Under the pieces are notes generated by a model that worked only from the letters and a program-made list of their open reading frames with translations, had not been told where the DNA came from and made no database searches. A stretch of DNA of 36,500 bases from the NCBI GenBank assembly GCA_027063595.1, contig JAMORJ010000052.1, forward strand, positions 1 to 36,500. Direction: 5' to 3'. Below are positions 9,910 through 24,186 of this stretch, piece after piece (positions within the stretch are counted from its first letter, which is position 1; every line of letters begins with the position of its first letter). The DNA comes from Nautiliaceae bacterium. Lineage in GTDB: Bacteria > Campylobacterota > Campylobacteria > Campylobacterales > Nautiliaceae. Made by a program: the position numbers and the translations under genes.

Positions 9910-10761
9910 TTGTTTGCTTTAATTGGACCAACAGCAAGCGGCAAAAGTGATTTAGCACTTAAACTTGCAAAAAAACTAAACTACGAAATATTATCTTTAG
10001 ATAGCTTAAGCATTTACAAAGAAATAGACATAGCTTCAGCAAAACCTTCCAAACAAGATTTAGCACAAGTAAAACACTACGGCGTTAACGAAATATATCC
10101 AAATGAAAAATTTGACGTTATGAAATTTATAGAAATCTATAAAAAAATTCCTCATAAAAACATAATTATAGTAGGAGGAACGAGTTTTTACTTAAAAGCA
10201 ATGATAGATGGAATTTCACAAATGCCGACAATTTCAAAAGAAATAAAAAAAGAAGCAAAAAAATTTACATACGAAGATATAAAAAAAATAGATCCTATTT
10301 TTGCTTCTAAAATATCAAAAAACGATACTTATAGAATATCTAAAGCTGCTGAAATTTTTCTTGCCACAAAAACACCTCCAAGCGAATACTTTAAAAAACA
10401 TCCTCCAATTCCGATTATTCCCAATATTCCAATATTTGAAATCCAAATAGATAGAAATCATCTTAAAGAAAAAATAAAAAAAAGAACAAAAAAAATGTTT
10501 GAAATGGGATTGATAGATGAAGTAGCCTATCTTGAAAAAAAATATAAAGATAGAAGACTTCCTGCTCTAAAAGCTATCGGAATAAAAGAAGTATTGGATT
10601 ATTTTAACGGGATTTACAACAAAAACGAACTTTTTGAAAAAATAGTAACAAACACTTCAAGACTTGCAAAAAGACAACAAACTTTTAATAAAACTCAATT
10701 TAAAAACAAAATATCAGCTCCCATAGACAAATTATATGAAATCATTTTAAAAAAGATTTAA
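9910..10761 (+). CDS. miaA: tRNA dimethylallyltransferase
   Basis: MiaA transfers a dimethylallyl group to N6 of adenosine-37 in tRNAs reading UNN codons. From the TTG at 9910 the protein is 283 residues and starts M-F-A-L-I-G-P-T-A-S-G-K-S, with the P-loop at 6-13, followed by L-D-S-L-S-I-Y-K-E-I-D-I-A-S-A-K-P, I-V-G-G-T-S-F-Y-L-K-A and L-K-A-I-G-I-K-E-V. The longer reading from TTG at 9889 would translate the promoter; AAAAAAGGA at 9896-9904 fits the TTG at 9910. The 3' end overlaps pflA on the other strand by 15 bp. Confidence 0.93.
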   Translation: MFALIGPTASGKSDLALKLAKKLNYEILSLDSLSIYKEIDIASAKPSKQDLAQVKHYGVNEIYPNEKFDVMKFIEIYKKIPHKNIIIVGGTSFYLKAMIDGISQMPTISKEIKKEAKKFTYEDIKKIDPIFASKISKNDTYRISKAAEIFLATKTPPSEYFKKHPPIPIIPNIPIFEIQIDRNHLKEKIKKRTKKMFEMGLIDEVAYLEKKYKDRRLPALKAIGIKEVLDYFNGIYNKNELFEKIVTNTSRLAKRQQTFNKTQFKNKISAPIDKLYEIILKKI

Positions 10762-12990
10762 AGCATCCTTACAAAGACCTTTCCACAAAGTTGAATCTTT
10801 TATCTTCAAACACTCGTTTAAATATTTTTTATCTCGAGTTAGATTAGCAAGCATAAACAATGCTCTTGCTTTATCTTCTCCTCTAACTCTTGGCAATAAA
10901 TTTTTTAATACTCTTATCGCTTCTTTTTTATTTTTAGTATATTTTGCAAATACAAACTCAACAAAAGGAGAATAAGGATAAGCTTTAAATTCATTTTGTA
11001 AATCTATTATTTTTTTAGCGTAAGTAGCCGCCAACAAGTAATTATTGTTTTTTATAGCCCAGCGAACTATTTTAATAAAAGCATCTGTATTTTTTATATT
11101 TTTAAATTTATCAAGTTTTTTAGCAATTTCCAAAGCTTCTTTATATCTTTTCAAACGCCATAAAGCTTCAAATTTTAAAAGCAAATAATCATAACAATTC
11201 TTTTTCATTACGCTACACAAATCATCTACTGCATTTACGATATTTTTATAATCTCCTAAACCTTTAAGAGCTTCTATTTTTCTTTTCATCCATTTAATAA
11301 ATACTTTATCATCGGGCGAATCCAAATACTTATTACAAACTATCGAAGCCACCTTATAATCTTTTGCTTTAATTGCACATTCATACAATAAATCATCATA
11401 TTTCTTCTCAAGAACTATCTTATATTTTTTTATTAAATCAATAGCTCTAAAACATTCATGATTTTTCAAAAGCTTAATTGCATATTCTTTTAAAACTTTT
11501 TTAATAAACTCTTTTTTTTCTTTAAAAATACTATCTGGAATATTCTTTATCTTATCAAGCATTTTTACTATCTCATCATATTTTTTCATTTTATAAAGAA
11601 TTTTAACTTTCTCCACTATTGCCTTTTGCCTAATATCCCCTTGATAGTTTTTAATAATGTTTTCAATATATTGTAACTTCTTAGTTAAATTACTCTCAGG
11701 CAAATTAAATAAAATTTTATCTCTTAATATTTTAGCAGCATCTGAATAATCTCCAAAAGGAAATTCTTTTAAATACTTATCTATAAAATACAACGCCTCT
11801 TTATAATTTCCATTTTCATATGACCACTGCGCTAAATTATACAAAAGAGGCTCATACAAATCATCTAATTTTTTAAGTCTTTTTAACAAATCTTTTCCAA
11901 TATCAATTGCAAGCTTATACATTCCGTGACTAGCAAGCATTTTTGCAAGTTCATAAGCTTTTTGCTTATCTTTTAATAAAAATTCTTTATTAGCCTTATA
12001 AATTTTTTCATAATATTCTACTGCCTTTTTAATATTCCCTTTATCCATATATCTTTGGGCAAGTCTTGCTGCAGCTAATGAAGCAACGTCAAGATCGGTA
12101 GTCGAATATAGAGCTTTCTCATAAAGAGCAAACGCTTTTTTCTCATCGCCCATCGAATATAATTGATCTGCAAGATAAATCATCGCAAGATAAGCCCATT
12201 TGGTATTAGGATAGTCGTTAATTATTCTATTGTAATAATAACTTGCATCGCTTACAAAACCTTCTTTTGCATAACTTCTACCAATCATTAGCAATACTTC
12301 TGGCATCTTATCAGAATATGCGTATTGTTTTATCCATTTTTTCCCAAGAGATATTACCTCATTAAATTCATTATTCTTTTCAAGCAATTTAAGTTTTAAA
12401 TACAACACATCCGGTAAAAAAATAGAATTTGGATATTTTTTTATAAAATCTTCAATTTCAGGCAAAACATCTTGATGATTTTTATAAGCTTTTAATATTT
12501 CAAAATATTTCAATACATCGGCATTGGTTTTTATCTTCACAGGATTTAAATTTTCATCAATCGCTCCAATGTAAGGATAAACAGTATGGTGATAATAAAA
12601 TTTTAATCCTTTAATATCATTTCTTAAAAATTCCTCGTTTGCAATTATTACCCATTTTTTAGCTTTTGTAAGTTTAAAAGGAGTTATAAGAGGGTTATTA
12701 TATAAATTCTCTTTAAATGCATAAAATTTATAAGGAGTATTTACCTTTATTTCTATAATAAAAGCATTTTTTAAAAATTTAGGATTGATTTCAAAATATC
12801 TAGATTTATCTTTAAACACGGGCGTTTTTGGAATTTTTCTAAATCTACACTCTATTATATTTTTATTTTTTACGCATACAAACGGCTCTTTGTTATATAA
12901 AGTTAAAACCTCATAAGGCTTTTTGGCTACTCCATAATCTATGTTTAAACTAAGAGCAAATAAAAATAGTGGGAAAAAAAGAAAAAACAA
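10747..12990 (-). CDS. pflA: PflA-like periplasmic TPR protein of the flagellar motor
   Basis: 747 residues. A hydrophobic signal peptide (1-14, ending F-A-L-S) is followed by N-I-D-Y-G and a beta-rich domain to about 150, then tetratricopeptide-type helical repeats to the C terminus (for example K-K-A-V-E-Y-Y-E-K-I-Y). In Campylobacter jejuni PflA is a periplasmic scaffold that helps hold the motor stators. Size, layout and its place just after nuoN, the same order I recall for C. jejuni and H. pylori, support the call. The start is a TTG with AAAGGGTAGGG immediately upstream; no other start exists near the signal peptide. A promoter lies in the 33-bp gap to nuoN. Confidence 0.78.
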   Translation of the reverse strand: MFFLFFPLFLFALSLNIDYGVAKKPYEVLTLYNKEPFVCVKNKNIIECRFRKIPKTPVFKDKSRYFEINPKFLKNAFIIEIKVNTPYKFYAFKENLYNNPLITPFKLTKAKKWVIIANEEFLRNDIKGLKFYYHHTVYPYIGAIDENLNPVKIKTNADVLKYFEILKAYKNHQDVLPEIEDFIKKYPNSIFLPDVLYLKLKLLEKNNEFNEVISLGKKWIKQYAYSDKMPEVLLMIGRSYAKEGFVSDASYYYNRIINDYPNTKWAYLAMIYLADQLYSMGDEKKAFALYEKALYSTTDLDVASLAAARLAQRYMDKGNIKKAVEYYEKIYKANKEFLLKDKQKAYELAKMLASHGMYKLAIDIGKDLLKRLKKLDDLYEPLLYNLAQWSYENGNYKEALYFIDKYLKEFPFGDYSDAAKILRDKILFNLPESNLTKKLQYIENIIKNYQGDIRQKAIVEKVKILYKMKKYDEIVKMLDKIKNIPDSIFKEKKEFIKKVLKEYAIKLLKNHECFRAIDLIKKYKIVLEKKYDDLLYECAIKAKDYKVASIVCNKYLDSPDDKVFIKWMKRKIEALKGLGDYKNIVNAVDDLCSVMKKNCYDYLLLKFEALWRLKRYKEALEIAKKLDKFKNIKNTDAFIKIVRWAIKNNNYLLAATYAKKIIDLQNEFKAYPYSPFVEFVFAKYTKNKKEAIRVLKNLLPRVRGEDKARALFMLANLTRDKKYLNECLKIKDSTLWKGLCKDALNLF

Positions 12991-13023: not shown

Positions 13024-14352
13024 CTAAGGTAAAGTAGCATTAAATACATCTGCTCCAATAATTCCAAAATAAATAGTACCAGCAAGTAAAATAAGCTGAC
13101 CTATTAAACTTCCTGTAGAAATTGAAATAGTTTCAAAATTATTTGGCTCATCCATATAAATATGCTTTATTATCCAAACATAATAAGCTACAGCAAGAGC
13201 TGAATTAAGAAGAGCAATTAAAACAACCCACCAAAGTCCAACATCTACCCCAGCATAAAACGCTACCGCTTTAGCTAAAAATCCAGCAAGCAATGGAATT
13301 CCAGCAAGAGAAAACAGTTGAATTGTAAAGAAAAGAGAATGAATAGGAGCTTTTTTATAAAGTCCTTTTAAATCTTCTAAATATTTAACTCCAAGTTCTC
13401 TTCTTAAATCATTAAGAATTAAAAATACGCTCGTTTGCATAAAAATATAAGCAATTGCATAATACAAAATTCCAGAATAAGAATAAATACTTGTAGCCGC
13501 TGCAAATGGAATTAGAGCATATCCACTATGTGCAATTGAAGAATACGCCAAAATTTTAGAAATTCTTTTTTGCCAAAGAGCCATAAAGTTTGCAAGAGTC
13601 ATCGTAATAATCGCAAAAAAGGCAAAAATAAGTACTGTTGCAAAAGGATAAGTGATTAAAAATTTATAAAAAGCTTTAAATGTTGCAAATAAAACTACGC
13701 TTTTAATCACCCCACTTAAAATTCCAGCTGCTGCGTGATTTACTTGAGAATAAGCATCGGCTGCCCATCCATGCATCGGAACAACAGTTAACTTATAAAA
13801 AATTCCAGCAAGCATAATAGCAACGGCAATTAAAGTAAATTTCCCATGCACATTCATATCAATATAAGCAAAACTTGTAGTTGTAAAACTATAAAGAGCA
13901 AAACCAAGCAAAATCACCCCACTTGCTACAGCTCCTGCAATAAAAGCTTTTATGGCACCTTCTGCGTTATAAAAATTTCTAATGTTTGCAACCAAAATAT
14001 AAGAGATAATCGCTATTACTTCAAATAGCACAATAAACAAGAAAAAGTTTGCACTCTCTAAAAATGCTATGCTTGCTCCAGCCAAAAAAAGCATTTGAGC
14101 AATAAGAGGCCTTTCAAATCCGGTTAAAGAAAACGTTACCGCCGCTAAAGTCACTAACAACACATATTCCATCAATTTAGTAGCACTATCCACTGCAAAA
14201 CCAGGGAAAAGCCCTACCAAACTTTGTCCTTGGTAAATAAAAAACATCGATAAAATAAATGCGGAAATTGCTATAAGCTTAGCAATTATAATATTGTTTC
14301 TATAAAATACTGGTACCAAAAGTCCCGCTGCAATTAAAATTATAAAACTCAT
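13024..14352 (-). CDS. nuoN: NADH-quinone oxidoreductase subunit N (antiporter-like)
   Basis: 442 residues of almost continuous membrane helices, one of three Mrp-antiporter-like proton-channel subunits. The functional acidic residue sits in L-F-E-V-I-A-I-I-S-Y, and the helix-7 lysine in F-Y-K-L-T-V-V-P-M-H-G-W-A-A-D-A-Y. Last gene of the nuo operon. The ATG at 14352 overlaps the nuoM stop (ATGTAATG) and follows AGGAGG. Confidence 0.95.
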   Translation of the reverse strand: MSFIILIAAGLLVPVFYRNNIIIAKLIAISAFILSMFFIYQGQSLVGLFPGFAVDSATKLMEYVLLVTLAAVTFSLTGFERPLIAQMLFLAGASIAFLESANFFLFIVLFEVIAIISYILVANIRNFYNAEGAIKAFIAGAVASGVILLGFALYSFTTTSFAYIDMNVHGKFTLIAVAIMLAGIFYKLTVVPMHGWAADAYSQVNHAAAGILSGVIKSVVLFATFKAFYKFLITYPFATVLIFAFFAIITMTLANFMALWQKRISKILAYSSIAHSGYALIPFAAATSIYSYSGILYYAIAYIFMQTSVFLILNDLRRELGVKYLEDLKGLYKKAPIHSLFFTIQLFSLAGIPLLAGFLAKAVAFYAGVDVGLWWVVLIALLNSALAVAYYVWIIKHIYMDEPNNFETISISTGSLIGQLILLAGTIYFGIIGADVFNATLP

Positions 14353-15779
14353 TACATTCCTCCTAACCAGCTAAAAGCTTGATTTGCTAAATCGAAAATT
14401 GGCTGAGGATTTACTCCAAAATAAACAATTAAAAACGCATAAACAGCTAAAGCAAATTTTTCCGGCAAACTCATAGAAAAATCTGCTTTTTCAACTACAG
14501 GACTCATAGGTCCATGAATTGCACGTCTAACCGACCAGATAATATATCCTGCGCTAATAAGCCCAGCCAAGGCAATTACAGCAATCCACCATCCATACGC
14601 CTTAACAGCCGAAATTATAATTGTAAGTTCTCCTACAAATCCCATAGTTCCAGGAAGTCCAAGAGCAGCCATACCAGCTAAGATAAAAATAGCACTCGCA
14701 TAAGGAGCTTTTTTCATAATTCCACCCATCTCGTCCATATACCATGTATGAGTTTTATGATGTAACCATCCAGCAATCAAAAAGAGAGGAGAAATCACAA
14801 GAGCATGCCCAATCATTTCGTATAAAGCCGCACTAAGCCCATCATAAGTCATAGTAGAAATGGCTACTACCACAAGTCCCATGTGCGAAATTGAAGAATA
14901 CGCAACCATTTTTTTAATATGTCTTTCATAAATTGCTAAAAATCCAGCAAAGAAAGTAGTTGCAAGCCCAAACCCAAGCATCCAAGGAGCAAAATGCATT
15001 GTTGTAATTGGCATCAATTCAACTGTAAATCTAATAAGCCCATACGCTCCCATTTTCAAAAGAACACCCGCTAAAAGCACAGAAATACTGCTTGGCGCTT
15101 GAACGTGAGCATCAGGAAGCCAAGTATGAAACGGAAATACTGGAAGTTTAGCTGCAAATCCAATAAACATCAACCACCAAATAAGAGCAGGAGTAACAAG
15201 AGCCGTTTCTTTAATTAAAGTTAAATCCCAATATCCAGTTTGTTTATAAAGAAGATAAAACCCTACAAACATAAACATCGCAAATACGTGAGTGTATAAG
15301 AAAAATTTTATTGCCGCATAAATTCTATTTTCTTCTCCCCAAATTCCTACCAAAAAGAGCATCGGCACAAGAGTTAATTCCCAAAACATAAAAAACCAAA
15401 GAACATTTGTAGTCATAAATACCCCAAAAATAGGACCACTAAACATTATAAGTAAGCTAAAATAAGCCCCTTGCTTTTTTTCATTCCAAGAAGTAAATAC
15501 AACTAAAATCAACAAAGCCGCTGTTAAAAGAAGCATCGCCACGCTTAATGCATCAATTTGAAGCGTTAATTCAAATCCAAATTGAGGTACGCTTAAATAA
15601 TTTCCCAAAAATAACCAACCATCTTCAGGAAGTTGATGATACCAACTAAGTGCTATTATAAACAAAACGATAAACCATCCAAGCGCAATATACTTTGCAA
15701 ATTGTTCAGCCCCTCTGGTAAAAAAATACACCAGGGCTGAAAAAACTATCGGCGCAAAAATAATATCTACAGCAACCAT
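14352..15779 (-). CDS. nuoM: NADH-quinone oxidoreductase subunit M (antiporter-like)
   Basis: 475 residues, polytopic. The key charged residues of the proton half-channels are intact: Glu in F-W-E-L-T-L-V-P-M, and Lys in A-A-K-L-P-V-F-P-F-H-T-W-L-P-D-A-H-V-Q-A-P. It sits between NuoL and NuoN in the membrane arm. ATG at 15779 immediately after the nuoL stop, with AAGGGG upstream. About 30 residues shorter than E. coli NuoM, within family range. Confidence 0.96.
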   Translation of the reverse strand: MVAVDIIFAPIVFSALVYFFTRGAEQFAKYIALGWFIVLFIIALSWYHQLPEDGWLFLGNYLSVPQFGFELTLQIDALSVAMLLLTAALLILVVFTSWNEKKQGAYFSLLIMFSGPIFGVFMTTNVLWFFMFWELTLVPMLFLVGIWGEENRIYAAIKFFLYTHVFAMFMFVGFYLLYKQTGYWDLTLIKETALVTPALIWWLMFIGFAAKLPVFPFHTWLPDAHVQAPSSISVLLAGVLLKMGAYGLIRFTVELMPITTMHFAPWMLGFGLATTFFAGFLAIYERHIKKMVAYSSISHMGLVVVAISTMTYDGLSAALYEMIGHALVISPLFLIAGWLHHKTHTWYMDEMGGIMKKAPYASAIFILAGMAALGLPGTMGFVGELTIIISAVKAYGWWIAVIALAGLISAGYIIWSVRRAIHGPMSPVVEKADFSMSLPEKFALAVYAFLIVYFGVNPQPIFDLANQAFSWLGGM

Positions 15780-17630
15780 CTACAGCCCCTTTATAATTAT
15801 TAAAATAAGAATAACAATAATTGCAACTCCAAGCACAAATTGTCCCATATATGAACCAATTTGACCTGTATGTCCTCTTTTGAAGATATTATAAACCCAT
15901 TTTGTCATATCAACCGTTTTATTTACCACATAATCAATTACGTAAGTATCAAACCATCTTGCGCTTGCCGCTATAGCCCCAACTACGATATTTTTTGAAA
16001 TCCAACTAATCATAGCTTCTACATAATAACCATTAAATAGAATTTGATGAATCGTCTGAACAAAATGATGAGAACCAATTTTATATAGTAAGTTAAGTCC
16101 TTTTACATAAAGTCCTACAACTATTAAGAAAATAATAAGCATAGCCGTTAGCATAAATGCCGCAAGACCAGCTACGTGAGGTTCAACTACTTCATCTCCT
16201 ACGATATAATGAATAATGTCAGATTGCCAAATTGAAATAAATAGCGTAGTAAATGCCAAAATTCCAAGAGGCAATCTCATCCATAAATTACTTGGTTTAT
16301 GAACACTTCCTCCTATCTCTTCATGTCTTGGCTCGCCAAGGAAAATTAAGATCCAAAGTCTAGTAATATACGCAATTGAAAGAAGTGCCGCAATCGTTAC
16401 AAAAGTTTTTGTAAATCCATTACCCCACTCCCAAGCAGCTGCTACAACCATTTCTTTACTAAAATATCCACTAAATGGAGGAACACCTGCTAAAGAGAGT
16501 GAACCCATCGCCATAAATAACGCTACAAAAGGTGCTGTTTTAATAAGACCTCCAAGTTTCCAAGCATCTTTTTGATGATGAGCAATATAAATAACCGCTC
16601 CAGCACTTAAGAAAAGCAATGCTTTAAAAATAGCATGATTTACAAGATGTAGCATACCAGCTGCTAAAGACCCTACTCCAAGACCTACAAATGCAATAGA
16701 TAAATGAGACATTGTTGAATATGCCAAAATCTTTTTAATCTCTTTTTGAACAAGAGCCGAAGTTGCACCAATGAAAGCTGAAAGCGCCGCTACATTAGCA
16801 ACCACATATAAAGCATCAGTATAGCTAAAGAAATCAAACAATCTTGCAACGATATAAATACCACTATTAACCATCGTCGCACCATGAATCAAAGCAGAAA
16901 CAGTTGTTGGACCTTCCATAGCGTTCATAAGCCATGGATAAAGAGGAAATTGTCCAGATTTTCCAATTGCTCCCATGAATATAAACAAAGCCGCTACAAG
17001 AGCAACCGTCTTATTAAGTTCTCCCGTATTTGCCATTTCATTAAGTTTTATTAAATCTATGGTTCCAGCATAATAAAATAGTATTGCAATTGCTGCTAAA
17101 ATGAAAATATCACCAAATCTCGTATAAAGAAAAGCTTGCATACCAGCAGATGCGGCTGAATGTTTGTAATACCAAAAACTAATTAAAAGATAACTTGCAA
17201 GACCCATAAACTCCCAACCAACAAACGCTCCAATCAAATCTTTAGTAATTACGAGTAAAATCATACCTCCAATAAAGAAAAGAACTTTTGCATAATACCT
17301 TGGCTGATCAGGATCTTCGCCCATATAATCGTGTGCAAAATGAATATCTAAAAACCCAAGACCCGTTGCTATAAGAAGCATGACTATCGATAAGTGATCA
17401 ATATATATTTTCATTGGAATTTCGATATCTCCATACTTAATCCAAGGCAAAGTAATATCAATTGGAGAATCCGAATATTTAAAAAATATTACCAAACTCG
17501 CCAAAAACAGTATACCACCAACTACTTCAGCCACCCAAAAAGCAAGCTCTTTTTTTGCCTTTCCTAACACATACGCAAGCACCGCCCCAATAAATGGCAT
17601 ATACATTAAAATCATTACTGCATTATTCAT
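15780..17630 (-). CDS. nuoL: NADH-quinone oxidoreductase subunit L (antiporter-like)
   Basis: 616 residues. It has the distal antiporter subunit motifs G-W-E-F-M-G-L-A-S-Y-L-L-I and G-K-S-G-Q-F-P-L-Y-P-W-L-x-x-A-M-E-G-P-T-x-V-S-A-L-I-H, including the TM5 Glu and TM7 Lys. Length and the C-terminal segment are compatible with the long lateral helix plus final transmembrane anchor of NuoL. Overlaps nuoK by 8 bp. Confidence 0.96.
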   Translation of the reverse strand: MNNAVMILMYMPFIGAVLAYVLGKAKKELAFWVAEVVGGILFLASLVIFFKYSDSPIDITLPWIKYGDIEIPMKIYIDHLSIVMLLIATGLGFLDIHFAHDYMGEDPDQPRYYAKVLFFIGGMILLVITKDLIGAFVGWEFMGLASYLLISFWYYKHSAASAGMQAFLYTRFGDIFILAAIAILFYYAGTIDLIKLNEMANTGELNKTVALVAALFIFMGAIGKSGQFPLYPWLMNAMEGPTTVSALIHGATMVNSGIYIVARLFDFFSYTDALYVVANVAALSAFIGATSALVQKEIKKILAYSTMSHLSIAFVGLGVGSLAAGMLHLVNHAIFKALLFLSAGAVIYIAHHQKDAWKLGGLIKTAPFVALFMAMGSLSLAGVPPFSGYFSKEMVVAAAWEWGNGFTKTFVTIAALLSIAYITRLWILIFLGEPRHEEIGGSVHKPSNLWMRLPLGILAFTTLFISIWQSDIIHYIVGDEVVEPHVAGLAAFMLTAMLIIFLIVVGLYVKGLNLLYKIGSHHFVQTIHQILFNGYYVEAMISWISKNIVVGAIAASARWFDTYVIDYVVNKTVDMTKWVYNIFKRGHTGQIGSYMGQFVLGVAIIVILILIIIKGL

Positions 17631-17931
17631 CGTCCACCGCCTTATTTAGGTTATCTGGAATAATTTTTCCTGTAATTCTATAAGCCAATATAAAAATCAA
17701 AACTCCAGCCGCCGCTTCAAGAGTAGCTATTACGATAATAACATACGCAATAGCAAGCCCATGAGTAAATCCAAAATTAAACGCCGCACTTGCTAATAAC
17801 AATATAACAGCATTTAAAAGCATTTCAAGAGAGAAAAGTATTTTTAAAAAATCACTCTTACTTGTTACTCCATAAAGTCCTACGGCAAAAAGAATAATTG
17901 CAGCAATCGCATCGATATAAAAATGAACCAT
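17623..17931 (-). CDS. nuoK: NADH-quinone oxidoreductase subunit K
   Basis: 102 residues, three membrane helices, related to MnhC. Both conserved glutamates are present: in L-F-S-L-E-M-L-L-N-A (helix 2) and I-A-T-L-E-A-A-A-G (helix 3), corresponding to E. coli Glu36 and Glu72 of the proton path. AAAGGA precedes the ATG at 17931. Confidence 0.95.
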   Translation of the reverse strand: MVHFYIDAIAAIILFAVGLYGVTSKSDFLKILFSLEMLLNAVILLLASAAFNFGFTHGLAIAYVIIVIATLEAAAGVLIFILAYRITGKIIPDNLNKAVDDE

Positions 17932-17933
17932 CG

Positions 17934-18401
17934 TTATTCCTTTCCATGTTTTAGAGTATGAAGCATTCTAATGCTTCCATACAACACACTTGCGGCTACA
18001 ACGCTCATAAATATTGCGATTTCAGCATAAAAATCGGTAAATATTTTAACTTGATCTTTTAAAGGAATCGCTTTACCTTCATAAGGGATAATTGGTAATA
18101 AAAACGGAACTATAATCATTCCAATTACAACTATAGTTACTACCGCATAAGCCCAAGGTCTAATTTCATATTTTGGAAACTTAGCTCCAATAACCGTTAC
18201 ACCAAAAAGCGTTAATACTACTATTCCTCCAGTGTATACGAAAATTTGAAAAAGTCCAAGAAGTTTTTCATCCATAGTAATATAATAAATCCCAAGCAAA
18301 AACATCATCATAACAAATGAAATCACAGAAGGAACGGTATTTTTTTGAGTTAAAGACAACACCGCTAAAATAATTGCAATAGCTAAAATTAATACGCTCA
18401 T
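17934..18401 (-). CDS. nuoJ: NADH-quinone oxidoreductase subunit J
   Basis: 155 residues, five predicted membrane helices. The third helix contains the NuoJ motif Q-I-F-V-Y-T-G-G-I-V-V-L-T-L-F-G-V, whose pi-bulge is linked to conformational coupling. Overlaps nuoI by 4 bp and is separated from nuoK by 2 bp. Confidence 0.95.
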   Translation of the reverse strand: MSVLILAIAIILAVLSLTQKNTVPSVISFVMMMFLLGIYYITMDEKLLGLFQIFVYTGGIVVLTLFGVTVIGAKFPKYEIRPWAYAVVTIVVIGMIIVPFLLPIIPYEGKAIPLKDQVKIFTDFYAEIAIFMSVVAASVLYGSIRMLHTLKHGKE

Positions 18402-18913
18402 TTTTCCTCTCCTTTAGCCTCTTGCTTTTTAAGCTCGGCTTCTCTTTTTTTCTTTTCCATCATTTCACGTTTTTTTCTAGCTTTTTCCTCTTCTTCACGT
18501 TTTTTTTGCTCTATCCATTCCTCTGGAATATCCACTCTAACCCAAAAATCCTCCAAAGTTTTATGAGTACCATCTGGAGCAATTATTTCTATATCGCCAC
18601 CACTAAGCTTAATCGCTTTTGGTTTAGTAGGGCAAACATCTTCACAAAGCCCACAAAAAATACAAACTGCTAAATTCACTTCGGGCACCATTCTTGGCTT
18701 TTTTAAAGGAAGAGGTTTCATTTTTATAGCATCTACCGGACAAATTTTATTACAAGCATCACATCCAATGCAAAATTCATAATGAATTTCATGTCTTCCT
18801 CTAAAAATAGGCGATTTATGAGCTGGCTCTTTTACTATATCTTTAATTGCGATTCTTGGCTCCGTAAAAGCCTTCATTACCCTTATTATTTTTTCTCCAA
18901 TTTCAAAAATCAT
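18398..18913 (-). CDS. nuoI: NADH-quinone oxidoreductase subunit I, 2x[4Fe-4S], charged tail
   Basis: 171 residues with two ferredoxin-type cluster motifs: Cys48-51-54-58 (C-I-G-C-D-A-C-N-K-I-C-P) and Cys84-87-90-94 (C-I-F-C-G-L-C-E-D-V-C-P). These pass electrons to the NuoB cluster next to the quinone site. The C terminus (about 133-171) is an extension made almost entirely of Lys, Glu and Arg and predicted to be a free charged helix. With no NuoG in the operon, NuoI would be the exposed electron entry point, and the tail may help dock a donor protein; that is inference. SD AGGAG, ATG 18913. Confidence 0.94.
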   Translation of the reverse strand: MIFEIGEKIIRVMKAFTEPRIAIKDIVKEPAHKSPIFRGRHEIHYEFCIGCDACNKICPVDAIKMKPLPLKKPRMVPEVNLAVCIFCGLCEDVCPTKPKAIKLSGGDIEIIAPDGTHKTLEDFWVRVDIPEEWIEQKKREEEEKARKKREMMEKKKREAELKKQEAKGEEK

Positions 18914-18914
18914 T

Positions 18915-19886
18915 CTATGCTCCTAATAAATATAATCTTGCAAAAATTATCCATACCAAATTTAAAACGGCAAGCGGAGTCAACCAACTCCAACAAAATT
19001 TAAGCATTTGATCAAGTCTAAGTCTTGGATTAGACGCTCTAATGGCAACTATAATAAGAGCAATTAAAGCAACTTTTAAAAATAACCACCAAAAACTATC
19101 AAAAAACAATCCCCTATATCCTCCAAAGAAAAGCACAACGGCTGCCGCACTTACTACCAAAATTTCGGTAAATTCAGCAAATTTAAGCAATGTATAGTTA
19201 GTCCCAGCATATTCTGTATAAAATCCATACACTATTTCTTGTTCGGCATCCGGAATGTTAAATGGAGGTTGTTCTAAAATACCAAGCATCGCAATAATGT
19301 AAATTATTGCTCCAGGAAGCAATATTAAACTCGTAAGCCAAGTACTATTTTGCATAATTTCATACAAATTCATCGTTCCAAATAAAAGAGCTGGAGAAAG
19401 TGCCGCCAAAAAGAAAGGAGCTTCCATTGAAAGCATTTGAGCCAAAATTCTCATCCCTCCCAAAAACGAATATTTATTATTACTTCCAAATCCAGTCAAA
19501 AACAATAAAAACGGCTCAACGCCAATTAAAACTACAAGACCAAGAACTCCATACTCTGTATCTAAAATAGCTCTTCCATCGTTAATTAAAGGAGTCCAAG
19601 GAATTAAAATTACAGGCAAAGCCGCTATTATTGGAGTAATAATTGGAATAATGTTAAAAAGATACGGATCTGCTGATTTTGGAGTAATAGACTCTTTTGT
19701 TAAAAGCTTAAAAATATCCCAAACAGTTTGAAGCGATCCAGCAGGTCCATTATAATGAGGACCAACTCTTTTATGAAGATAAGCAAGAGTTTTTCTTGCA
19801 AAATAAAACACAAAAAACGTCCATAAAAGCAAAAACAAAAGACCTGGAAAAACAAAAATGTAAAAAAGCATACTACCTACACTCAT
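18915..19886 (-). CDS. nuoH: NADH-quinone oxidoreductase subunit H
   Basis: 323 residues, eight predicted membrane helices. It has NuoH signatures H-K-R-V-G-P-H-Y-N-G-P near the N terminus, and E-Q-P-P-F-N-I-P-D-A-E-Q-E-I-V-x-G-F-Y-T-E-Y in the cytoplasmic loop lining the quinone cavity. Directly follows nuoCD, where nuoE, nuoF and nuoG would stand in most operons; only 9 bp separate the two genes, leaving no trace of a deleted gene. Confidence 0.95.
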   Translation of the reverse strand: MSVGSMLFYIFVFPGLLFLLLWTFFVFYFARKTLAYLHKRVGPHYNGPAGSLQTVWDIFKLLTKESITPKSADPYLFNIIPIITPIIAALPVILIPWTPLINDGRAILDTEYGVLGLVVLIGVEPFLLFLTGFGSNNKYSFLGGMRILAQMLSMEAPFFLAALSPALLFGTMNLYEIMQNSTWLTSLILLPGAIIYIIAMLGILEQPPFNIPDAEQEIVYGFYTEYAGTNYTLLKFAEFTEILVVSAAAVVLFFGGYRGLFFDSFWWLFLKVALIALIIVAIRASNPRLRLDQMLKFCWSWLTPLAVLNLVWIIFARLYLLGA

Positions 19887-19895
19887 CTTCTCTCC

Positions 19896-21569
19896 TTATC
19901 TATCTAAATCACCCTGACATATATGCATACTTCCATAAAGCAATGGAATATCAGATAAAGTATGCCCTGGTAAAAGATTTTCAAGCATCATCGTATGATT
20001 AACGCTTGGTGTTTTTATTTTTAATCTATAAGGCGAAGTCGCTTTATCTTGAGTTACAAGATGCATAAGTATCTCTCCTCTTGCCCACTCAATTCTTCTA
20101 ACCGATTCTCCCGCTGGAAGTTTTTTTGGCATTTTTATTAAATGATCTTTTGATGGATTCATTTCACCTTTTTCAATTCCTTCTCTTATTTTTTCAATAG
20201 CCTGTTTAATTAAACCAATTGATTGATCCACCTCTTTTACGATAATATAAAGCCTATCTCTTGCATCTCCATTTTCACAAGTTACATAATCCATCTCAAG
20301 ATCAGCATATCCAGCATAAGGTTCATCTATTCTCACATCAATCTTAGCTCCGCTTGCTCTTGCTACTGGACCTGCTAAGAAATATTCTTCTACATCTTCT
20401 AAAGTAAATACTCCCGTATTTTTCGCTCTTTTTGTCATAAGAGGATTTTTTAAGAAAATGTCTTCAATATCAGGTTTTACTTTTTCCCATTTTTTAATCG
20501 CTTTGTCTATTTCATTAAACCAAGCTTCAGGATCTGGTAAAGGATATCTAACACCTCCAGGTTCAATACAAGAAGTTGCAATTCTTGCCCCAGAATAATC
20601 TTCTAATACATCAAGAAAATACTCTCTTACATCCAAACACCACATTAAAAACGTTTGAAGCCCCATTGTTCCAAAAAAGCTTCCCATTGAAATAAGATGC
20701 GATGCTATTCTTCCAGTTTCGCCTAAAATAACTCTCATATATTTAGCAAAAGGAGTAATTTCCTTTCCTGCAATTTCTTCTACCGCTTCTGAGTAACAAA
20801 TCATAGGATTAGGATTATCCATAAAACAAATTCTCTCAACCGCAACAATGGCTCCAATAAAATCTTTTCTTTCAACCAAATTCTCCAAAGCTCTCCAAAC
20901 ATACCCAATATCTGGTTCTACTTTTTCAATTATTTCTCCATTAGTAAATACCTTAAGTCTAATCGGTCCGCTTGCAGGATGAGTTGGTCCCCAATGAAGA
21001 ACAGTTCTACTTCCCTCATGTCCGATAGTTTTTTCATGCTCTTCAAATTCTTCTAAAAATTCATCCGTAATAGCATTAATGTTTTCAATCAAATTCTTCT
21101 CATGCTCTTTAAAATCAAAATCTTTTCTAAATGGAAATTTTCCATAATAATCTCTACTAATTAGAAAATATCTTAAATTAGGATGACCTCTAAATTTTAC
21201 TCCAAAAGTAGAATATGCTTCAAGTTCATGGTAATTAGCGCTTGGCATTATTGGAGTAATCGAATCAATTTCGCAATTTTGCAAATCTCTATCCAAATCC
21301 ACTTTTAACCAAACATTTACTTTCTCTTCTTCTTTAGAAGACTTAGTCGGATTTAAATTTTCAAGAAAATAATTAACTTCAATTCTATTTTCATCGATAA
21401 AATCGGTAGGAGATACGGTTGAACAAGATTTAACTCCGGCTTTTTTTAATTCTTTTATTAAAGGCAAAAGATCTTCTTTGTTTTTTAACTTTGCTTTTAC
21501 CCAAGATCTATAATCTTCAATGTATTCTACATCATATCTACCAATAATTTCTTTTAATTTTTCTCTCAT
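19896..21569 (-). CDS. nuoCD: Fused NADH-quinone oxidoreductase subunits C and D, atypical NuoD
   Basis: 557 residues from the ATG at 21569; the earlier ATG at 21575 touches the AAGGG Shine-Dalgarno. Residues 1-155 are NuoC (S-A-N-Y-H-E-L-E-A-Y-S-T-F-G-V ... G-H-P-N-L-R), and about 180-557 NuoD. Aligned by eye without gaps to Thermus Nqo4, the quinone-site Tyr87 position is Phe249 and the preceding Asp is Cys248. The P-S-T-H-G loop that holds catalytic His38 reads H-P-A-S-G, one residue shorter. Against group 4 [NiFe] hydrogenases, the N-terminal CxxC reads C-F-M-D (248-251) and the C-terminal CxxC reads C-Q-G-D (551-554). It still groups with complex I by context. SD overlaps the nuoB stop. 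Confidence 0.92.
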   Translation of the reverse strand: MREKLKEIIGRYDVEYIEDYRSWVKAKLKNKEDLLPLIKELKKAGVKSCSTVSPTDFIDENRIEVNYFLENLNPTKSSKEEEKVNVWLKVDLDRDLQNCEIDSITPIMPSANYHELEAYSTFGVKFRGHPNLRYFLISRDYYGKFPFRKDFDFKEHEKNLIENINAITDEFLEEFEEHEKTIGHEGSRTVLHWGPTHPASGPIRLKVFTNGEIIEKVEPDIGYVWRALENLVERKDFIGAIVAVERICFMDNPNPMICYSEAVEEIAGKEITPFAKYMRVILGETGRIASHLISMGSFFGTMGLQTFLMWCLDVREYFLDVLEDYSGARIATSCIEPGGVRYPLPDPEAWFNEIDKAIKKWEKVKPDIEDIFLKNPLMTKRAKNTGVFTLEDVEEYFLAGPVARASGAKIDVRIDEPYAGYADLEMDYVTCENGDARDRLYIIVKEVDQSIGLIKQAIEKIREGIEKGEMNPSKDHLIKMPKKLPAGESVRRIEWARGEILMHLVTQDKATSPYRLKIKTPSVNHTMMLENLLPGHTLSDIPLLYGSMHICQGDLDR

Positions 21570-21578
21570 TGCCATCCC

Positions 21579-22052
21579 TTAAAACTTCATTTGTTTCCAA
21601 AGTCCGCCTTGGCTTGACGCCGAAGGTTCGCCTCTTTTAATTTTTTCTTTAAGTTCCTCAAGCCCCGCAACAATCGCCTCTGGTTTTGGAGGACATCCAG
21701 CCACAAACACATCCGCTGGAAGAATTTCTGTCATATTTTTAATAACGCTTGGAGAATCATTATAAGGTCCACCATCAAAAGCACAAGCACCAATTGCAAC
21801 TACATATCTTGGCTCTGGCATTTGCTCATAGGTTCTAAGAAGAGCTGGTAAAATTTTTTTACTAACAAGACCCGTAATAAAAATAATATCTGCTTGTCTT
21901 GGAGTTGGAGTCATTACATATCCATATCTTTCCCAATCGTATCTTGGTCCCATAGCCGCTAACATCTCTAAAGAACAGCACCCACTACAAAAATGCACTA
22001 TCCAAGGAGAACGACTTCTTGCATAGTTAAAAAAATCAAGAATTTTCAGCAT
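21579..22052 (-). CDS. nuoB: NADH-quinone oxidoreductase subunit B, N2 cluster
   Basis: 157 residues with all four ligands of the terminal [4Fe-4S] cluster N2: the tandem Cys pair in C-S-G-C-C-S-L-E, Cys in G-A-C-A-F-D-G-G, and Cys in G-C-P-P-K-P-E-A. The A-A-M-G-P-R-Y-D-W-E-R-Y-G helix forms part of the quinone pocket. The tail (R-G-E-P-S-A-S-S-Q-G-G-L-W) is short. Starts inside nuoA (17 bp overlap) with AAGGAG at 7 bases. Confidence 0.96.
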   Translation of the reverse strand: MLKILDFFNYARSRSPWIVHFCSGCCSLEMLAAMGPRYDWERYGYVMTPTPRQADIIFITGLVSKKILPALLRTYEQMPEPRYVVAIGACAFDGGPYNDSPSVIKNMTEILPADVFVAGCPPKPEAIVAGLEELKEKIKRGEPSASSQGGLWKQMKF

Positions 22053-22374
22053 TTCTATACTCCTTCATACTAACTGTAATAGCCACAAATAACAATATTC
22101 CAAAAATCATAGCCCAAGTAAGCGCTTGAGGATTATCGGCAAATACAAACAAACTAAAAAAAAGTCCTGCCATATCAAAAACAATAAAAGCAATCGCAAA
22201 TATAAAATAGTTAAAATTTGCCTTCATTGGAACTTCGCTACTTGGAGGAAGACCACATTCAAAATGATCGTTTTTAATTTCTCCGGGATTAAAAGGTGCA
22301 ATAATAATTCCTAAAAAATAAAGAAGCAATACACCAGCTAACAATCCAGAAGTATATATCAAAATAGTTTCCAT
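22036..22374 (-). CDS. nuoA: NADH-quinone oxidoreductase subunit A
   Basis: 112 residues from the ATG at 22374 (the adjacent TTG at 22377 is too close to AAGGAG). Three membrane helices and the loop F-E-C-G-L-P-P, whose Cys marks the quinone-site loop of NuoA/ND3. In helix 2 the family motif F-D-V/M-E is F-D-M-A here (residues 66-69): the acidic residue equivalent to E. coli Glu81 is Ala. First gene of the nuo operon. Confidence 0.93.
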   Translation of the reverse strand: METILIYTSGLLAGVLLLYFLGIIIAPFNPGEIKNDHFECGLPPSSEVPMKANFNYFIFAIAFIVFDMAGLFFSLFVFADNPQALTWAMIFGILLFVAITVSMKEYRNAENS

Positions 22375-22403
22375 CAATTCTCCTTAGGATGCTTTTTTAA
22401 TTT

Positions 22404-22485: not shown

Positions 22486-24186
22486 TCATAATTTAAAACC
22501 AACTTCATAACTCGAATCAAATGCATTTTGTTTTTCTTTTATTATCTCTTTTTCAAAATCTTCTACTTTAAAAACAGGTTTTTTCTTCATAGCTACTTTT
22601 ATAGCCGTATTTTTAATTACAAGCTCTATTTGAGCTCCGGTTAATTCGTATTTTGCAAGTTTTTTCACATCAAAATTTTCTTCAAATTCGGCATTTTTAG
22701 GTAATTTTATTTGCCAAAGTTTAACTCTCTCCCTAAAAGAAGGTTTAGTAAATTCGATTTTATAATCAAATCTTCTTGAAAAAGCACTATCAATCGTCTC
22801 TAGCAAATTGGTAGTAGCTATTAAAATCCCATTAAATCTTTCAAGCTGTTCAAGAAAAATATTTTGCATTTGATTGTGCATTTTATCCGCACTGTTAAAA
22901 CTTGAAGTAGTTCGTGTAGATAAAAACTGATCAGCTTCATTTAAAAGAAGAACGGGTTTTGTTTTTATTTTTTCGCTTATTTCGTAATATTCTTCAAAAA
23001 GCCTTCTTACGTTTTTTTCGCTCTCTCCTACATACATCGATAATATTTTACTTGAATCTAAAGACAAAATCGGTTTATTAAGTTCTTTTGCTATTGAATA
23101 AGCCGTTAAAGTTTTACCGGTTCCTGGGAAACCATAAAAAAGTATCTTTGCTTCTATCTCTTCAGAATTTTTTATCCCCCATTTTTTTAACAAATTCAAA
23201 ACTCTTTTATCAATTTGCTTTAAAAGAGCATTTAGCATCTCTTGAGTTTTTTTAGGAAGTACTACTTCTTTTAAAGAAACTTTTGGCTCTATTAAATCAA
23301 ACAAAGTATCTTTTATTATATGCTCAATTTTATGTTTTTTTCTTGGATGAATAAGCTCGTTTAAAATTTCCTCGTTTATAAAATAAATTCTTGTATATCC
23401 TCCAAATCCTCCAAAAATTTCATCGTAATCCAAAATACCTTCACTTACTAATTTTGAATTTTCATCAAGCAAACTTCGATTTTTAATCCTTTCAATTTCA
23501 TCAGTGCTAATTAAACTAAGCAAAAAATTTAGCTCTCTTAAATTTTCGTTTGAATGCATATACTCTTCTTTTAACAAAGCCAAAAATATTAATCTTTCTT
23601 TTTCGCTAAGCTCGTGTTCATTCATAAAGTTAAGTACTGGCAAATCGATAGTAGTTTTTTTTATCTTTTCCTTAATCGTATTTTCAATTAAAATAAGTTT
23701 ACTTTGAAGTCTTTTTATAGATGCTGATTCAGTAGAATAGTTTTTTCTTAAATTTACAAGCTGTTCATAAATCTCGATTCTTAAAAATTCATCGTGCAAA
23801 TACTCCAAATGATCTTTATAAGGCTCACTTGAAGGTATCGAAAAATCAAGCTCTCCCTTTTCAAGGAGTTTTAAAAACGAAACCGATAAAGAAATATTAG
23901 AATTTAAAAGTTCAAGCGTAGTAAGTTCGGAACTTTTAATACCAAGAGATAAAACTATCCACCCCTCTTCTATCAAGTTTTTTACAATCTCTACTTTTTC
24001 AAAAATTTCTATTATTTCCTTATTATAAATCTCTTTTAAAAGATCTCTCACTTTAACATCTTCTTTACCTTCTAAAAATAAGACTAAAAGATTTTTTAAA
24101 ATTTCTATTTCTTCGTCTTTTAGATTCAATATTTCATATACCTTGCTCTTTTTAGGATTAGATAAAAACTTCTTAACTTCGCTCAA
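22486..24186 (-). CDS. AAA+ family ATPase with long helical N-terminal region
   Basis: 566 residues. The AAA module occupies about 300-560: Walker A G-F-P-G-T-G-K-T (352-359), Y-V-G-E-S-E-K-N-V-R-R-L-F pore-loop region, Walker B L-L-L-N-E (Asn416 in place of the usual Asp, catalytic Glu417 kept), sensor 1 A-T-T-N, and Arg finger region F-S-R-R-F-D. The first 290 residues are mostly charged helices of unknown fold. It resembles the FtsH/Cdc48-type AAA branch but has no protease domain or membrane segment. It may be a remodelling ATPase; the substrate is unknown. The start is TTG (24186) with AAAAAGGAG at 5 bases; divergent from rsmE. Confidence 0.85.
   Translation of the reverse strand: MSEVKKFLSNPKKSKVYEILNLKDEEIEILKNLLVLFLEGKEDVKVRDLLKEIYNKEIIEIFEKVEIVKNLIEEGWIVLSLGIKSSELTTLELLNSNISLSVSFLKLLEKGELDFSIPSSEPYKDHLEYLHDEFLRIEIYEQLVNLRKNYSTESASIKRLQSKLILIENTIKEKIKKTTIDLPVLNFMNEHELSEKERLIFLALLKEEYMHSNENLRELNFLLSLISTDEIERIKNRSLLDENSKLVSEGILDYDEIFGGFGGYTRIYFINEEILNELIHPRKKHKIEHIIKDTLFDLIEPKVSLKEVVLPKKTQEMLNALLKQIDKRVLNLLKKWGIKNSEEIEAKILFYGFPGTGKTLTAYSIAKELNKPILSLDSSKILSMYVGESEKNVRRLFEEYYEISEKIKTKPVLLLNEADQFLSTRTTSSFNSADKMHNQMQNIFLEQLERFNGILIATTNLLETIDSAFSRRFDYKIEFTKPSFRERVKLWQIKLPKNAEFEENFDVKKLAKYELTGAQIELVIKNTAIKVAMKKKPVFKVEDFEKEIIKEKQNAFDSSYEVGFKL

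Follow-up and report, generated by a model that had tools for sequence, protein, structure and literature searches.

The 36,500-nucleotide stretch of Nautiliaceae DNA analysed here (the window), a single contig from a 1.41 Mb genome, encodes a complex I of the ferredoxin type in which the substrate site of the NuoD subunit has been rebuilt: judged by its residues, the predicted pocket finds its closest match in MBS, the sulfane-sulfur reductase of Pyrococcus furiosus, while the complex lacks both two of the defining features of MBS and the residues that define a canonical quinone reductase. We tentatively regard it as a subclass of ferredoxin-type complex I with an MBS-like pocket, for which we infer donor, acceptor, direction and coupling.

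The genes are arranged on the minus strand in a compact cluster, nuoA-nuoB-nuoCD-nuoH-nuoI-nuoJ-nuoK-nuoL-nuoM-nuoN, that runs from 22377 to 13024: nuoA (22036–22377), nuoB (21579–22052, 157 residues), the nuoCD fusion (19896–21575, 559 residues), nuoH (18915–19886), nuoI (18398–18913, with two [4Fe-4S] motifs), nuoJ (17934–18401), nuoK (17623–17931), nuoL (15780–17630), nuoM (14352–15779) and nuoN (13024–14352). The conserved proton-pumping Lys and Glu residues of NuoK (both conserved Glu), NuoL and NuoM are retained, and the subunits A, B, C, D, H, I, J, K, L, M and N, encoded together in a single cluster, are those of an 11-subunit ferredoxin-type complex I. No nuoE, nuoF or nuoG is present in the nuo cluster of the window; the genome-wide profile search covered NuoF, with NuoE and NuoG being judged from the content of the cluster, and NuoF did not exceed the cut-off in any of the 21 Nautiliaceae genomes, the sole match being a 16.8-bit fragment in one of them. 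NuoI is presumed to be the point at which electrons enter from ferredoxin; the protein also exhibits a long, highly charged, Lys/Glu-rich tail of about 30 residues beyond the second Fe-S motif, and NuoI differs in overall length among relatives. A 2009 account of the partial Nuo of Nautilia profundicola already reported that nuoE, nuoF and nuoG are absent and proposed reverse electron flow; it also lists nuoK as missing (PMC2628731), unlike in the window, where nuoK is found. The cluster is flanked by an AAA ATPase gene upstream (22486–24186) and a TPR-protein gene downstream (10747–12990), neighbours that are conserved in Nautiliaceae and absent beside the cluster in other carriers.

A first-pass annotation of this DNA had proposed that the NuoD domain carries CxxD at both [NiFe]-ligand pairs, Phe at the position of catalytic Tyr87 and an HPASG sequence in place of the His38 loop, and all three claims were borne out by alignment with HMMER and MAFFT. 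At these sites NuoCD reads GPTHPASGPIR, VERICFMDNPNPM and GSMHICQGDLDR. The motifs C250-F-M-D253 (20817–20828, minus strand) and C553-Q-G-D556 (19908–19919, minus strand) align exactly on the CxxC pairs of group-4 [NiFe] hydrogenases: C250 and C553 correspond to the first Cys of each pair (Cys1 and Cys3; ERVCSLCS, DPCISC), with D253 and D556 occupying the second-Cys columns (Cys2 and Cys4) of group-4 large subunits from the same family. The motifs had been correctly identified, though numbered 248–251 and 551–554, two lower than in the 559-residue ORF, due to counting from the third codon (21569). F251 lies in the Tyr87 column of complex I (mouse NDUFS2 drlDYvs against ericFMd). The His38 loop, H199-P-A-S-G203 (20967–20981, minus strand), is one residue shorter than in complex I (GPTHPA-SGPIR against GPQHPAAHGVLR), the deleted residue being His38 itself; equivalents of Tyr87 and His38 were sought elsewhere in the domain and none were found. 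Asp139, the partner of His38 in complex I, is replaced by T303 (20667–20669, minus strand), with Thr, Asn, Ser or Ala at this position across the clade. NuoCD thus lacks the His38 and Tyr87 of a canonical quinone site, and it also falls below the cut-offs of the canonical NuoD profiles TIGR01962 (249.8 of 459.35 bits) and NF004739 (311.2 of 360 bits). Of the two Asp residues that had been singled out, D253 deserves the attention, but D556 is less special: ordinary NuoD proteins also have an acidic residue, Glu, at this position (GELDR, GEVDR). The window NuoD stands out by its two Cys, by D253 and F251 and by the missing His. Near N2, Ala333 occupies what we take to be the redox-Bohr His position of complex I, and ordinary NuoD proteins of Campylobacterota likewise have no His there. 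H551 (19923–19925, minus strand) stands at the position of the canopy Asp (NDUFS2 D458, HycE D529), a residue described as strictly conserved across the superfamily (PMC9474812); clade members have His or Tyr there, ordinary Campylobacterota NuoD proteins Asn. An AlphaFold2 model of NuoCD (13 rows) reached a pTM of 0.79 overall, with pLDDT values below 50 at residues 197–204, 224–251 and 554–559, and hence the geometry of the site was left out of the analysis; the best Foldseek matches were ordinary complex I NuoCD chains, which are uninformative at the site.

The residue pattern is invariant in approximately 38 orthologs sharing 54–88% identity. In the conservation alignment of 39 clade rows, no substitution occurs at C250, F251, M252, D253, N254, the HPASG loop or R499 in any of the 38 rows that cover them, nor at C553 and Q554 in the 36 that do, and the single deviating residue at D556 belongs to an ortholog with a frame-broken C-terminus (L048); His38, Tyr87 and Asp139 are lost without exception throughout the clade. 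Among the Cys residues of the D domain, C250 and C553 alone are invariant (C260 varies), and their synonymous codons are mixed (C250: TGT 22, TGC 14; C553: TGT 25, TGC 10). Since two carriers (G001 and G277) are single-contig genomes, an assembly artefact is excluded.

All 21 Nautiliaceae genomes possess the gene, with its motifs intact wherever the contigs reach. Comparison of NuoD proteins over 298 Campylobacterota genomes, as had been suggested, separated the profile scores into two groups, the clade at 825–1217 bits and other NuoD proteins at no more than 232 bits; the Cys and Asp residues were absent from every ordinary NuoD inspected, and ordinary Campylobacterota NuoD proteins keep His38, Tyr87 and Asp139. 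Further carriers are 14 of the 175 genomes (~8%) of one Campylobacterota family (f4), spread over 4 of its 11 genera, Ca. Thiovulum imperiosus, one Helicobacteraceae MAG, two Nautiliales-type MAGs and two MAGs of gammaproteobacterial sulfur oxidisers (2 of 63 genomes of their order). A second, ordinary NuoD is found in the four f4 carriers from the 298-genome comparison, in Thiovulum, in the Helicobacteraceae MAG and in both gammaproteobacteria. Nautiliales, Thiovulum and Thiomicrospira-type bacteria are known for sulfur metabolism, and the patchy spread of the gene suggests horizontal transfer. The order of the nuo cluster is identical in all carriers and no further gene is constantly attached to it; one gammaproteobacterial copy (L046) is flanked by housekeeping genes, by eye lptF/G, folA, thyA and lgt. 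In the same locus, small ORFs resembling toxin-antitoxin genes (by eye) are inserted between nuoK and nuoL (L046 12778–13845), and an apparent NuoB-NuoCD fusion was dropped as an artefact of an N-gap. Two candidates for a common need of the carriers found no support: nitrogen fixation, as just 2 of the 19 carriers have nifH above its cut-off, and the reductive TCA cycle, with pyruvate:ferredoxin oxidoreductase essentially absent in the two gammaproteobacteria. Neither this enzyme nor nifH gave a real match in the two gammaproteobacterial carriers, which makes a ferredoxin role there less certain.

Four features had escaped the first-pass annotation: the close MBS match, a companion Cys in NuoB, the lost Asp139 and the uneven occurrence among sulfur bacteria. 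MbsL is without His38 and Tyr87, and of the four NiFe cysteines only C85 and C385 are kept, as seen by cryo-EM (PMC7684303). The MbsL stretches RICVPEPDVPEAIYSMAVDEI and SLDNCPPDIDR align with HMMER under ERICFMDNPNPMICYSEAVEEI and SMHICQGDLDR of the window, such that C250 corresponds to C85 and C553 to C385, with an acidic residue three positions later in each case; the MbsL motifs C85-V-P-E (RICVPEPDVP) and C385-P-P-D are of the form CxxE/CxxD, and MbsL (GPQHMATENFS) exhibits the same one-residue deletion that removes His38. Both motif alignments were obtained with unmixed window queries, and the whole MbsL domain was aligned by using an MbsL/window hybrid query. Among PDB matches, MBS ranks first for the stretch with the C-terminal motif, second and no more than 0.3 bits behind for the N-terminal stretch, and joint first for NuoB (144.9 bits). 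NuoB carries the N2 ligands C25, C26, C90 and C120 together with an extra Cys in the motif C22-S-G-C25-C26 (21975–21989, minus strand), and F-C22-S-G-C25-C26, in some cases with Thr for Ser, is present in every aligned clade sequence: the reading FCSGCC compares with F-C25-T-G-C28-G (FCTGCG) in MbsJ and with FGTACC in ordinary NuoB. With four N2 cysteines including the complex I tandem CC and the additional MBS-type Cys, the clade thus combines both NuoB patterns. Judged by its residues, the predicted cavity beside N2 is composed like that of MBS and unlike that of a quinone reductase.

In order to place the protein phylogenetically, a NuoD tree with hydrogenases as outgroup was built, in which the clade is monophyletic (100/100) with a stem of 1.2. 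In the best tree it branches before MbsL plus NuoD (99/96), a stem position consistent with the earlier suggestion of an intermediate between hydrogenase and quinone reductase; AU tests rejected neither the clade joined with MbsL (p 0.10) nor the clade joined with NuoD (p 0.11), so that the intermediate position is not proven. This deep position is provisional, as the tree took in one MbsL and no FpoD and contains long branches; viral contigs scanned for FpoD-like sequences yielded nothing useful. In the NuoB tree, the branching of MbsJ, the clade and complex I was not resolved. Two relatives were observed alongside: a HycE-like protein of a Nautiliales MAG (G315) lacks the CxxC cysteines (ERISGNESIAYQ), sits at the end of a very long branch and is probably an energy-converting-hydrogenase-related subunit, and the single-contig Nautiliaceae genome G001 encodes a second large subunit of the group-4 hydrogenase type, which is divergent (33% identity to the query) and has Leu instead of His in its GPFH loop (GPFLASLEEP).

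In the mechanism that we consider for a complex I with an MBS-like pocket, low-potential electrons from ferredoxin or a similar carrier would enter at NuoI and reach N2 of NuoB through the Fe-S chain, a small acceptor, most likely sulfane sulfur or polysulfide, would be reduced in the cavity and the complex-I-type membrane arm would couple this reduction to proton translocation; in sulfide oxidisers the direction may be reversed, with sulfide and proton-motive force driving the formation of reduced carrier. A different acceptor had already been raised as an option and is plausible given the lost quinone-site residues and the MBS-like pattern. It gains support from the fact that these residues are missing in carriers with menaquinone (genes in 20 of the 21 family genomes) and in a gammaproteobacterial carrier with UbiG alike, which fits a shared substrate other than quinone. 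Several observations count against a sulfur acceptor: NuoB keeps four N2 cysteines compared to the three-Cys cluster of MBS, the carriers have quinones, Nautilia possesses PsrABC as a further system for polysulfide (PMC10092268), there is no recognisable constant gene partner and the clade stands apart from MbsL in the best tree. Furthermore, the sulfur chemistry of MBS has been attributed to its three-Cys cluster with an open Fe, and C85A/C385A mutants of MbsL are still active (PMC7684303); the clade cysteines may hence be relics without a catalytic role. The most specific version, a bacterial proton-pumping ferredoxin:polysulfide (in reverse, sulfide:ferredoxin) oxidoreductase with a full complex I membrane arm, being either a stem intermediate or a convergent return to sulfur chemistry and having spread horizontally among sulfur bacteria, is rather doubtful as a whole.

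Nearly as likely as a sulfur acceptor is a modified quinone site: the complex could still be a ferredoxin:quinone oxidoreductase that binds the head group in a differently built pocket, with Phe251, no His or Tyr and other proton donors such as H551 or D253, suited to low-potential menaquinone and with the cysteines left over from hydrogenases. The 11-subunit complex I is thought to feed menaquinone from ferredoxin (PMC11238625), the menaquinone genes of the family are at hand, the N2 ligands and the membrane arm are intact, and Campbell et al. proposed quinone-linked reverse electron flow for the Nautilia Nuo (PMC2628731). Set against this, His38, Tyr87, Asp139 and the canopy Asp are jointly absent in every member, although the ordinary NuoD proteins of Campylobacterota, themselves menaquinone users, retain the first three, and most of the non-Nautiliales carriers checked have a second, ordinary NuoD.

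That C250, D253, C553 and D556 bind a metal such as Fe or Zn in a catalytic or structural two-Cys two-Asp site is improbable. All four residues are invariant and lie on the hydrogenase ligand columns, but complex I has an acid at the Cys4 position without a metal, no metal is described for the CxxE/CxxD of MBS (PMC7684303) and the AlphaFold model is unreliable there. A metal site of the [NiFe] type, which had been one of the options, is unlikely: two of the four Cys are gone and HypD is absent from 8 of the 19 carrier genomes searched, three of these eight being at least 94% complete, and therefore the NiFe(CN)2CO cofactor is excluded in the carriers without HypD; HypD is present in the genome of the window, which has other hydrogenases. 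Lineage drift, also suggested at first, would mean the neutral decay of a NuoD, which the small genomes and the long stem branch could accommodate; this is very unlikely and was rejected, as the residues are invariant across two phyla despite mixed synonymous codons, the 10-gene cluster is intact and the patchy spread speaks for transfer. A group-4 [NiFe] hydrogenase, or a reversion to one, can hardly be entertained and was likewise rejected: same-family group-4 paralogs align at 27–33% identity and the canopy residues S292-H293 and R499 are hydrogenase-like, but the second CxxC cysteines are missing everywhere, which already refutes it, the C-terminal processing extension is absent and so is HypD in the eight carriers.

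MBS, with its Mrp-type arm, is the proposed intermediate in the still unsettled conversion of the hydrogenase [NiFe] pocket into the quinone pocket of complex I. The clade complex, at home in hydrothermal-vent bacteria and occurring now and then in other sulfur bacteria, may represent a surviving step between hydrogenases and complex I, and its combination of a complex I membrane arm with an MBS-like pocket makes the transition testable in cultured bacteria, e.g. Nautilia. Its electrons may go to an acceptor other than quinone; should this be the case, the complex would add a route by which energy is conserved from sulfur chemistry at vents, or by which that chemistry is reversed, and the annotation as NADH-quinone oxidoreductase would be wrong for donor and acceptor alike.

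A literature search, covering papers outside subscription, found no prior description of the residue pattern. The partial Nuo of Nautilia profundicola appears to be the same kind of complex, without nuoE, nuoF and nuoG, and the accessible part of its account does not mention an altered active site (PMC2628731). The 11-subunit ferredoxin-type complexes I (Desulfitobacterium Nuo, NDH-1, Fpo-like) have the same subunits without E, F and G, a comparison made by subunit set, with FpoD and Desulfitobacterium NuoD sequences outside it; the window complex differs in its replaced quinone-site residues and in the extra Cys of NuoB. The bathyarchaeial Hfo, an 11-subunit Fpo-like [NiFe] hydrogenase of subgroup 4g, combines a complex-I-like set with hydrogenase features in its D subunit and is, like the window complex, a proposed evolutionary link, but has all four NiFe cysteines compared to two in the window clade (PMC7886697). 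With MBS (PDB ID: 6u8y; MbsL, MbsJ) the complex shares one Cys per former NiFe motif with an acid three residues on, the deletion of His38, the absence of Tyr87 and Asp139, the extra Cys of the small subunit (FCxGC) and the lack of an NADH module. MBS is known to reduce sulfane sulfur, whereas the window complex is known here from its sequence; the two also differ in the form of the motifs (CxxE/CxxD in MBS, CxxD/CxxD in the window clade), in the ligands of the proximal cluster (three Cys in MBS, four in the window NuoB including the tandem CC), in the fusion of a NuoC domain to NuoD in the window and in the membrane arm, which is of the Mrp type in MBS and of the complex I type (NuoA, H, J, K, L, M and N) in the window.
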